In this document: positions 83-3,058 of the stretch, in pieces
How positions within the stretch are numbered: position 1 is the first letter of the stretch
How the letters are laid out: each line of letters starts with the position of its first letter
Assembly: GCA_020432165.1 (NCBI GenBank)
Contig: JAGQGU010000018.1
Span: forward strand, 53,589 to 103,594
Origin: Thermomicrobiales bacterium
Lineage (GTDB): Bacteria; Chloroflexota; Chloroflexia; Thermomicrobiales; UBA6265
DNA: 50,006 nucleotides
Direction: 5' to 3'
Program-made: the position numbers and the translations under genes
Notes under the pieces: model-generated
The model's input: the letters and a program-made list of their open reading frames with translations, nothing else
What the model was told of the DNA's origin: nothing
The model's database searches: none

Positions 83-253
83 CTACTCGCCCCAGTCTTC
101 GCCTTCTTCCGGGGCGAGGGCGAGCTCGACGGGATCAACACCCACCACCTCAAGATCAGCACCACACTCACCGCACGGCACGATCTCGCCAACTTCCACA
201 CCCACAACTTCGATCTCAGCATCGCACTCGGGGCAAATCGCTACAGCAGCCAT
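83..253 (-). CDS. lysW: LysW-type amino-group carrier protein
   Basis: This is a 56-residue acidic protein with two CxxC pairs (C7/C10 and C27/C30) that form a zinc ribbon, ending in EDWGE, the C-terminal tail typical of LysW. In known LysW systems the terminal glutamate gamma-carboxyl is joined to the amino group of alpha-aminoadipate (lysine) or glutamate (ornithine/arginine), so the intermediate is carried on the protein. The start at 253 is chosen because AAGGAG sits 7 nt upstream; the frame remains open further upstream but without a comparable site. It lies 104 nt after the second ornithine carbamoyltransferase gene, which favours a role in LysW-dependent ornithine/arginine synthesis. 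The LysX/ArgX ligase and later enzymes are not in this window. Confidence 0.93.
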
Positions 254-357: not shown

Positions 358-1377
358 TCATGACGAAAACGGATTCCGATCGTCATGCAGCACCTGCAGC
401 AACACCGCCTTATGAACATGGAGTCGCGCCTCGGCCTGATCGAAGATGATACTTTGCAGACCATCCGCGACCTCGGGTTCGACTTCCTGTCCACGATGCA
501 ACGGCAGGCAGTGCATGAACACCGCCTCCGGCTTTGCCATTTCCATAATTTCCTGTGTGACCCGATAGGGTGCCAACGCAATCAGTTTGCCCGGAATTAC
601 CGTGCTACCCATGCTTTCGTGGACATCGGTATAGACGGCATCGACTCCTCGTACCGCTTCACGCGCGGTCCCGAACATCTGCAATCTTGCACCGGTCTGC
701 GCGGCCAATGCCTGGGCGGCAGACACGACCTGGGGATCGGGTCCAAATGCATTCGGGGAGGCAACATTCACATTCACACCGCTCCCCAACATGCTCAGCA
801 TGAGGCTGTGGCACATGTTGTTGCCATCACCAAGGTAGGCAAAGGTGAGATTCTCCAGCGTGCCGAAATGCTCGCGCAGGGCGAAAACATCGCTCATCGC
901 TTCCAGCGGGTGATCTTTGCTGGTGAGGGCGTTGAAGACCGGCACGGTGGCACCGCGCGCGAAATCCATCAACTCGGCAGGATCGGCAATGCGGATAGCA
1001 ATGGCATCGACATAGCGGCTGATGATCGCAGCAGTATCGCCCACGGTCTCACCGCGTTTCATCTGGAGATCCTGCGCGCCAAGGAAGATGGCTTGTCCGC
1101 CCATCTGCTCCATGCCTGCCTGGAAGGCCGTACGGGTGCGGGTGCTGGGATGCTGAAAGATCATGCCCAGCGTCTTGCCCATCAACCACATATGGCTGAT
1201 CTGCTTGTTCCTGGTGCGCTTGAGCATGGCGGCAGTATCCAGAATCGCGAGGCGCTCTTCCGGAGAGAGGCTGAGATCGGTGAGGATACTTCGCCCCTTC
1301 AGCGAATCCGTTAATCGCACTTCTTGCTCCTCGCCATCTTCGATCCAGGTCAGGGCTCGTGTCGTCGTTGCATTCAT
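358..1377 (-). CDS. argF: Ornithine carbamoyltransferase paralog with altered HPxQ motif
   Basis: This 339-residue protein of the aspartate/ornithine carbamoyltransferase family would join carbamoyl phosphate and ornithine to give citrulline. Visible motifs are STRTR (78-82, carbamoyl-phosphate loop), DHPLE (155-159), DxxxSMG (251-257, ornithine-binding loop) and HCLP (289-292). The usual HPxQ motif reads HPLE, so the Gln that normally contacts carbamoyl phosphate is Glu. The upstream paralog keeps Gln. The ATG at 1377 is 4 nt after the stop of that paralog and has no strong Shine-Dalgarno of its own, which suggests translational coupling; the open frame upstream overlaps the other gene. The SMG loop argues for an ornithine-like substrate, but a diverged specificity is possible. 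Confidence 0.88.
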   Translation of the reverse strand: MNATTTRALTWIEDGEEQEVRLTDSLKGRSILTDLSLSPEERLAILDTAAMLKRTRNKQISHMWLMGKTLGMIFQHPSTRTRTAFQAGMEQMGGQAIFLGAQDLQMKRGETVGDTAAIISRYVDAIAIRIADPAELMDFARGATVPVFNALTSKDHPLEAMSDVFALREHFGTLENLTFAYLGDGNNMCHSLMLSMLGSGVNVNVASPNAFGPDPQVVSAAQALAAQTGARLQMFGTAREAVRGVDAVYTDVHESMGSTVIPGKLIALAPYRVTQEIMEMAKPEAVFMHCLPLHRGQEVEPEVADGLQSIIFDQAEARLHVHKAVLLQVLHDDRNPFSS

Positions 1378-1381
1378 GGCG

Positions 1382-2461
1382 TTAGCACAGGGTATGCACA
1401 AGAAGAGCCTTGTGCATATGCAGCCGATTTTCGGCCTGATCGTAGATGATGCTGGCCGGACTATCGACCACTTCGCTGGCGACCTCTTCATCGCGGTGCA
1501 TCGGCAGGCAGTGCATGAAGAGCGCCTGCTTTCCGGCGGACTCCATGATCTCTGGCGTGACCTTGTAGGGTGCTAGACTGACTGCGCGATGGGCCGCATT
1601 CTCCTGCCCCATGCTGACATGGACATCGGTATAGACCACATCGGCGTCTTTCACGGCGGCATGAGCATCGGTGGTTGCGCCAATGTGGGCACCAGTGCTG
1701 TTCCCGATCCACTGCGCGTACTGCATAACCTGCTCGCTTGGTGCGTACTCGGCGGGAGTCGCGGCAGTGACAGAAACACCCATCGCCGCACCGGAGAGCA
1801 TGAGACTGGAGACCATATTGTTGCCGTCACCGAGGTAGGCGATCTTCAGGCCCTTCAGATCACCGAAGCGTTCGGTGAGGGTGAGCAGATCGGCCCACGC
1901 CTGCAGCGGATGGCAGAGATTGCTAAGACCGTTCATTACCGGAATGCTGGCGTTCTCGCCCATCTCGACCAGCGTATTGTGATCGTAGACACGGGCAACG
2001 ACGCCATCGACGTAGCGACTGAGGATCTGGGCAGTATCGGCGATCGTTTCACCGCGACTGGTCTGCAGATCGTTCACACCGAGGAAGATCGCCTGACCAC
2101 CCAACTGCGCCATTCCCGCTTCCAATGAAACGCGGGTGCGGGTGCTGGGCATCTGAAAGATCATGCCAATGCTCTTGCCCGTGAGATAGTGATGCGGTTG
2201 ACCGTTCTTGTGGAGTCGCTTCAGGCGCGAAGCCGTATCGATCACCTCGGCAACCTCTTCCGGAGTGAGATCAGTATCGGTGAGCAGATGTCGACCGCGC
2301 ATGCGCGTGCTGACCGAGAATGTCGGCAAAGCAGGCATAGTCGGCCCGCCCAGCAAACTGGTGCGATCAGTGGCCGGACCACTGGAGTTCTGCGTCACAC
2401 TCGGCAACGGCTGCAGCTGCGGTGTACTGGGTGCGAAATCTGTTTTGGCGGTCTGTTCCAT
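1382..2461 (-). CDS. argF: Ornithine carbamoyltransferase, first gene after the T-box
   Basis: A 359-residue carbamoyltransferase with the full ornithine-type motif set: STRTR (106-110), HPLQ (184-187), DVHVSMG (279-285) and HCLP (317-320). It should catalyse citrulline formation in the cytoplasm. The start at 2461 (MEQTAK) follows AAGGGTAGG with 6 nt spacing and lies just after the T-box leader. The frame is open much further upstream, but that part is the structured RNA leader. The first 50 residues are Pro/Ser/Thr-rich and extend beyond the usual start of the family, so an internal start near residue 42 or 54 cannot be excluded. A second carbamoyltransferase gene follows after 4 nt. Confidence 0.92.
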   Translation of the reverse strand: MEQTAKTDFAPSTPQLQPLPSVTQNSSGPATDRTSLLGGPTMPALPTFSVSTRMRGRHLLTDTDLTPEEVAEVIDTASRLKRLHKNGQPHHYLTGKSIGMIFQMPSTRTRVSLEAGMAQLGGQAIFLGVNDLQTSRGETIADTAQILSRYVDGVVARVYDHNTLVEMGENASIPVMNGLSNLCHPLQAWADLLTLTERFGDLKGLKIAYLGDGNNMVSSLMLSGAAMGVSVTAATPAEYAPSEQVMQYAQWIGNSTGAHIGATTDAHAAVKDADVVYTDVHVSMGQENAAHRAVSLAPYKVTPEIMESAGKQALFMHCLPMHRDEEVASEVVDSPASIIYDQAENRLHMHKALLVHTLC

Positions 2462-2524
2462 CGGTAACCTACCCTTGTGGTCGTGCTGACGCCGACTGGT
2501 GGCCACACAGTGTGGCTGCCAATC

Positions 2525-2745
2525 AAAGGGGCGAGAGACGTCGGTTCCCGCGGTACCACCCTTCTTGTGCAGATGCTGCACATCTCTTGGCTGTTGCTTG
2601 TCTGGAGGCCATCCACCCGATCCTACTTGCCAGAGGCTTTCTTCGGTCGGCTGCTCACGGACGCGTTCGGCGGCGGATCGCAGATATCGGGCTTGCACCG
2701 TTCCCGATTCGCTGGTGCGATAGTGCCGCGTACTTCTTCCGATCG
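2525..2745 (-). promoter_or_regulatory. T-box leader (tRNA-sensing), probably arginine-responsive
   Basis: All main T-box parts are visible on the minus strand. Stem I runs from about 2745 to 2644, with a GGAAGAAGTA specifier-loop 5' side and a GGTGCAAGCC distal loop. The 3' specifier side (GAA followed by CGCGTCCGTGAG, 2668-2654) holds the overlapping Arg codons CGC and CGT. A stem II-like region follows, then a stem III hairpin (TGTGCAG/CTGCACA). Next is the T-box motif AAGGGTGGTACCGCG at 2549-2563. The antiterminator folds canonically: AAGGG/CCCTT as A1, a TGGTACC bulge, and GCGGGA/TCTCGC as A2. TGGT would pair with a tRNA ending ACCA. The exact specifier register is not proven from sequence alone. 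Confidence 0.94.
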
Positions 2746-3058
2746 ACGCAGAACTGAATTGTGTGTGGGCTATCTGAGGTGATGGCGCTACTCGGCTGCG
2801 GCCGCTAGCGCCTGGTACGCACCACGCGCTGAAGCGGCCGTTTGGGAGAGCGGGAGTCGCGCTCCTGGCCGTGTATAGGCGCATTCTGTTTCAGCAACGT
2901 ACCAGTCATTGATCTTCTCCAGGGAGAAACTCCCCGTGCGCGATTGAATTCCACATTCGCGAAATCGGCGTCCAGGAGACACCCCACCCCGCACCCACCA
3001 TCAATGTGGGTACGAGGTGAATGTACGATGTCTGCGGCTCATGTGTCAAGTTTCTCAC
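2746..3058. other. Intergenic stretch upstream of the T-box leader
   Basis: This gap separates the end of the MFS gene (3059) from the T-box leader. The arginine-operon promoter must lie here on the minus strand, but I see no -35/-10 pair good enough to call. No convincing gene is present. Confidence 0.6.

Follow-up and report, generated by a model that had tools for sequence, protein, structure and literature searches.

An arginine T-box predicted to control translation of argF in Thermomicrobiales, with a leader held in the frame of its gene

Results

The argF locus and the leaders compared

The window, by which we mean the whole analysed stretch of 50,006 nt of a Thermomicrobiales genome, carries an arginine gene cluster near one end, on the minus strand. 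The genes and the start codon that concern the leader are:

1382–2461, minus strand: argF, ornithine carbamoyltransferase, 359 aa (TIGR00658, 377 bits, above cut-off)
2461–2459, minus strand: argF start codon ATG (direct reading)
358–1377, minus strand: second ornithine carbamoyltransferase paralogue, 339 aa (TIGR00658, 336 bits, above cut-off)
83–253, minus strand: LysW carrier protein (TIGR01206, 65.5 bits, above cut-off)

The tandem carbamoyltransferases (358–2461, minus strand), both copies of which score as the ornithine type, are followed by LysW, a LysX-like protein, LysW-lysine hydrolase, two LysX and argC. Between its start codon and the OTC domain, the ArgF of the window has a tail of about 50 residues rich in Pro, Ser and Thr (2461–2300, minus strand), the sequence of which is poorly conserved across the family.

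Twenty-two argF leaders were compared, namely that of the window and those of 21 homologues, all from one family (Chloroflexota, Thermomicrobiales). The 21 ArgF homologues share 59–84% protein identity with the window ArgF, and the near relatives with named records are Chloroflexia/Thermomicrobiales metagenome assemblies. A pattern search found no T-box motif in the leaders of argF homologues from another family of the order (L060–L067), and therefore the arrangement described below may be confined to one family.

An arginine-specific T-box

2524–2755, minus strand: T-box leader, from Stem I to the antisequestor (RF00230, full-length match, 77.2 bits, E 4.5e-17)
2663–2665, minus strand: specifier CGC (Arg) with a purine next, read as GAA-CGC-G; the triplet is itself an Arg codon in the frame of argF
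2555–2558, minus strand: T-box bulge UGGU, complementary to the tRNA-Arg end ACCA (direct reading)

The initial annotation had proposed a T-box ahead of argF, and a covariance search finds one, with RF00230 matching at 2755–2524. The match came from a permissive Rfam scan and its 77.2 bits lie under the curated gathering score of 93, which is why a default Rfam scan of the window gives an empty list. Nine matches to RF00230 were obtained in the whole genome and two of the nine exceed the gathering score. T-boxes are present in all 21 genomes searched, that is, the genome of the window and 20 relatives.

The specifier CGC follows the S-turn GAA in 22 of 22 argF leaders, always in phase 0 to argF. 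How the triplet should be read can be judged from other T-boxes of the same genome, where the specifier comes directly after GAA (GAA-UGG for trpE, GAA-CUC for leuS and GAA-GAC for aspS); GAA-CGC of argF is therefore read as Arg, and these controls rule out the alternative of an Ala specifier (GAAC-GCG). Four tRNA-Arg genes were found, all ending in ACCA, complementary to UGGU. Among the tRNAs of the genome is tRNA-Arg(GCG), whose discriminator A matches UGGU. Judged by its sequence, the argF leader is a real T-box with an arginine specifier.

Two pairings that share one strand

2559–2563, minus strand: AAGGG of the T-box motif, 5′ strand of the antisequestor (RNAalifold consensus helix, 22 leaders)
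2525–2531, minus strand: CCCCUUU (A1′), common to antisequestor and sequestor (direct reading and alignment)
2468–2476, minus strand: argF ribosome site AAGGGTAGG (AAGGG(TAGG)), 3′ strand of the sequestor (complementary to A1′, compensatory changes in 22 leaders)

On the minus strand these motifs lie where the initial annotation had put them (AAGGG at 2563–2559, CCCCTTT at 2531–2525, the ribosome site at 2476–2468). The antisequestor and the sequestor exclude each other because one strand, CCCCUU, is common to both. All 22 argF leaders have CCCTT(C/T) and a complementary AAGGG before the start codon (AAAGG in L055); in the aligned leaders this appears as CCCUU(C)GG complementary to CCGAAGGG directly 5′ of the argF start. 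Standard pairs occupy 92% of the alignment cells of the two tested helices, versus 29–53% when the partners are slid. In the sequestor, three pairs have changed on both sides within the 22-leader alignment, with CUUCGACUCA/UGAGUCGAAG in L054 and CUUCCG/CGGAAG in L059 as examples. The competing antisequestor is the RNAalifold consensus over the 22 leaders and shows double changes in two pairs. The mutually exclusive pairings of A1′ suggested by the initial annotation are thus borne out by the comparison of related leaders, in which the pairing of A1′ with the ribosome site is kept in 22 of 22.

The duplex energy of the sequestor against shuffles gives a mean z of -2.7 across the 22 homologous leaders, of which the window has the weakest sequestor; taken alone, the window sequestor has only 5 bp and a duplex z of -0.4 against shuffles, not above chance. 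Folding the window leader as a single sequence is uninformative (z 0.5). A comparison of the minimum energies of the two states with forced pairs gives mixed results, in part because the stem finder settled on wrong GGG sites.

Absence of a terminator

The lack of a T-run after the leader, pointed out by the initial annotation for the window, holds for all 22 argF leaders: none has a T-run after the T-box motif, and an intrinsic terminator was found in none. Six other T-boxes of the genome (L001–L004, L006 and L008) end in a hairpin and a T-run, and therefore the argF leader differs from them in output. The six belong to leuS, trpE-like, valS-like, aspS-like, thrS and pheS-like genes, named from the downstream proteins and specifiers, leuS and thrS alone being queries. 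The argF leader is almost certainly a translational T-box. As a separate observation, T-boxes of the transcriptional and of the translational type seem to coexist in a single genome.

The leader keeps the frame of argF

2462–2890, minus strand: open stretch of the argF frame through the entire leader (143 codons), in the +1 register of the uORF described below (open in 22/22)

Upstream of the start codon the argF frame is open for 143–210 codons in 22 of 22 genomes, and both other forward frames of the leader have stops in all 22. By dinucleotide shuffling, an open argF frame is expected by chance at a mean of 0.10 per leader. The distance from the T-box motif to the start codon is a multiple of three in every leader, and the S-turn AGTA, the specifier, CCGAAG, AGTAGG and the T-box motif each hold one phase to the argF start in all 22. 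Spacings of neighbouring landmarks vary widely, for instance from 18 to 48 nt and from 59 to 167 nt, with the phase unchanged. Parsimony on the ArgF tree requires no fewer than 36 length changes in the T-box leader, spread over four variable segments, and each is a multiple of three; the same is true of 15 more that fall between Stem I and the uORF motif. Random indel lengths would give 36 multiples of three with a probability of 3^-36 = 7e-18. Indel errors of assembly would destroy such a pattern, not create it.

The T-boxes of leuS and thrS in the same family served as controls. Their motif phases are 11/8/4 for leuS and 8/8/8 for thrS and the frames often close early; the frame constraint is therefore a property of the argF leader, not of T-boxes at large. 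The constraint itself is shown by a strong signal in the comparison of genomes. To our knowledge, translation is the only known cause of multiple-of-three indels over some 400 nt, and the constraint is very probably due to translation.

Substitutions in the argF frame of the leader are spread evenly over codon positions, with no coding signature. The GC content by codon position is 0.72/0.65/0.69 in the leader versus 0.69/0.45/0.87 in argF. The absence of a codon-position signature indicates that the leader is not constrained at the level of its amino-acid sequence; which residues it encodes is of little consequence, as would be expected for a frame used rarely or only to reach argF. Owing to the same flat pattern, +1 frameshifting is not presented here as a proven case. 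A protein function of the leader-encoded stretch was ruled out on this ground as well. An antisense gene behind the shared phase was also ruled out, for the antisense frames have stops in most leaders. A conserved start codon with a ribosome site was found in the argF frame of none of the 22 leaders.

An arginine-rich uORF in front of the T-box

2805–2909, minus strand: uORF of 34 codons, Arg-rich leader peptide MTGTLLKQNAPIHGQERDSRSPKRPLQRVVRTRR, stop TAG at 2807–2805 (22/22 homologues)
2914–2920, minus strand: uORF ribosome site GGAGAAG (direct reading; a G-rich/GGAG block in homologues)
2850–2865, minus strand: GGAG (2865–2862), 6 nt, then UCC-CGC (2855–2850), candidate +1 shift site (conserved motif, putative function)
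2799–2840, minus strand: hairpin at the 3′ end of the uORF, CGGCCGCU...AGCGGCCG (direct reading; similar inverted repeats in homologues)

In all 22 genomes the uORF starts with ATG or GTG followed by A, with a G-rich ribosome site upstream. The peptides have 20–44 residues including 4–12 arginines, typically in the form ...SRSP..RRP.RR.RPTR. On average 26% of the uORF residues are arginine; the two remaining frames reach 18% (Wilcoxon p 0.0003) and 8% (p 4e-5). Termination is by UGA, UAG or UAA, in most cases directly after an Arg codon. Relative to the uORF, which it overlaps, the argF frame stands in the +1 register in 22 of 22.

A candidate for a shift from the one frame into the other lies within the uORF. 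NCC followed by C is present in 22 of 22, and the next uORF codon, which would occupy the A site, is CGN in 21 of 22, the exception being L045 with CAA. Every genome has an SD-like GGAG/GGGG block about 4–7 nt before NCC-C, and the frames on either side of the site are conserved. At about 5–6 nt, the SD-like spacing exceeds that of the RF2 frameshift site. Re-pairing of tRNA-Ser from UCC to CCC would be imperfect at the candidate site. The SD-like block is also able to form a small hairpin with CUCCC, which could explain part of the conservation.

Directly upstream of the uORF, 11 of 22 genomes have argG, identified by eye from the sequence of its C-terminus and ending on the AUGA of the uORF. 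It was not seen upstream in the other 11, the window included. Eight of the loci with argG (L040, L043, L046, L047, L050, L053, L057 and L058) have argG and argF in the same frame, separated by just one in-frame UGA, and read-through of this UGA would give an ArgG-ArgF fusion.

Discussion

An arginine T-box that governs translation, together with reading of its leader in the argF frame by ribosomes that shift by +1 from the uORF, is on balance the probable account of these observations. The first part would work as follows. Uncharged tRNA-Arg would bind through the specifier CGC and through its ACCA end on UGGU; CCCCUU would then pair with AAGGG of the T-box, and the argF ribosome site would be free. 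With charged tRNA-Arg, CCCCUU would cover the argF ribosome site. We infer such a tRNA-dependent switch exposing the ribosome site from the either/or pairing and the specifier.

The second part would begin in the uORF, where a shortage of Arg-tRNA would slow decoding of the CGC codon at NCC-CGN and induce a +1 shift. The shifted ribosome would cross the T-box in the argF frame and open the sequestor, the outcome being either an N-terminally extended ArgF or help to initiation at argF's own site. Since a conserved start codon accompanied by a ribosome site is lacking in the argF frame of the leader, a +1 shift from the uORF is our first choice for the entry into this frame, and we regard it as about evenly balanced between true and false. 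That a shortage of arginine would act twice, through uncharged tRNA on the T-box and through slippage into argF at a hungry Arg codon of the uORF, is more tentative still. The site of the shift, its dependence on arginine starvation and the fate of the product are, like translation of the leader itself, inferences. If true, two arginine sensors, one binding the tRNA and the other decoding the codon, would act in one RNA on one output.

Entry into the leader could also be gained in other ways. Ribosomes might read through the stop of argG, to produce an ArgG-linker-ArgF fusion, or initiate weakly at a non-AUG codon. The 11 of 22 genomes with argG upstream, its UGA overlapping the AUG of the uORF and lying in the argF frame, speak for read-through. 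Citrulline passes from ArgF to ArgG, and a fusion would make sense in this respect. However, the frame is kept in the other 11 of 22, including the window, where argG is not visible, and in those 11 stops still close the argF frame at or near the start of the uORF. Initiation within the leader meets the difficulty that the argF frame offers no start codon that is conserved and has a ribosome site. We consider this way of translating the leader unlikely.

It is improbable that the leader is untranslated, being an ordinary translational T-box whose shared phase results from chance or common descent. Such a view would accommodate the lack of constraint at the amino-acid level in the leader, and translational T-boxes are already known (PMC7583486). 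Nevertheless, it would have to accept at least 36 length changes in four segments that are all multiples of three, expected at 3^-36 = 7e-18 for random indel lengths, while in the same family the T-boxes of leuS and thrS do not keep phase.

We give equally little credence to the uORF being a classical leader peptide alone, at which stalling on Arg codons alters the folding, with the common phase merely making rare accidental initiations or shifts harmless. The Arg-rich uORF, its conserved stop position and the hairpin over its end agree with such a peptide, and the speF leader with its Arg codons is comparable in principle (PMC6386406). By itself, however, a leader peptide does not predict multiple-of-three indels over some 400 nt. 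A transcriptional T-box, acting through a terminator or Rho, is very improbable, though some action of Rho may occur. The six further T-boxes examined in the genome resemble transcriptional ones, but the argF leader is followed by no T-run in 22 of 22, and the strand with which its CCCCUU pairs in the alternative state is the ribosome site of argF, with compensatory changes.

T-boxes that hide an SD have been known, mainly in Actinobacteria (PMC7583486, PMC7778990). As in the actinobacterial ileS T-box of those reports, uncharged tRNA would stabilise the antisequestrator of the argF leader and the alternative fold would cover the ribosome site. Unlike ileS, the argF leader has a long Stem I (a full RF00230 match), arginine specificity, argF as its target and a host in Chloroflexota; in addition, it shares the frame of its gene and follows an Arg-rich uORF. 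T-boxes of Chloroflexi were reported for ileS, trpE and a trpB-like gene of Dehalococcoides (PMC2494555, PMC3766115), and the portions of these reports consulted describe no arginine T-box and no translational output. The initial annotation had offered the layout as a possible novelty. This stands only in part: hiding of the SD is an already known kind of T-box control, while no arginine T-box of the present layout was found in the literature. Neither was a T-box in frame with its gene, nor one joined to a codon-matched uORF; in all three cases the search reached few subscription papers and the absence is unproven. Chloroflexota would be added to the hosts of translational T-boxes, here with arginine specificity and a long Stem I. 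What is unusual is the frame constraint and the uORF, both of which go beyond the account of the initial annotation.

T-boxes are described as noncoding leaders. As far as the literature was found, the argF leader, if our reading is true, would be the first T-box also read by ribosomes, and direct sensing of tRNA would be tied to codon-level sensing in one leader. Shifted ribosomes that open an initiation site have a precedent. In the ermC leader ORF, ketolide-induced frameshifting opens the mRNA structure and permits initiation of ermC, and UCC_UGA and CCC_UGA are known +1 shift sites (PMC5009743). The argF uORF would similarly sense trouble in translation, and shifted ribosomes would open a downstream structure to allow initiation; in contrast to ermC, the cue would be the supply of Arg-tRNA, the structure would be a T-box and the shifted frame would enter the gene itself. 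The metE and ppe2 B12 riboswitches of Mycobacterium tuberculosis also combine a switch with a translated uORF and an AUGA overlap, the uORF lying in or after the switch and ppe2 being reached by termination-reinitiation (PMC11260477). The argF leader differs from both: its uORF precedes the switch, which senses tRNA and itself lies in phase with argF.

A further contact may exist in the leader, from the loop of the antisequestor to a segment a short way downstream:

2488–2542, minus strand: GACGUC (2542–2537) with GGCGUC (2493–2488), possible loop-to-downstream pseudoknot, weak (alignment)

The duplex energy of this pairing, taken as GACGCY/RGCGUC, is not above that of shuffles (mean z 0.1). 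In the alignment, as GACGYC/GGCGUC, 92% of the cells are paired and one pair has double changes. The double change, from C-G to U-A between 2542–2537 and 2493–2488, occurs in L055 and L058.
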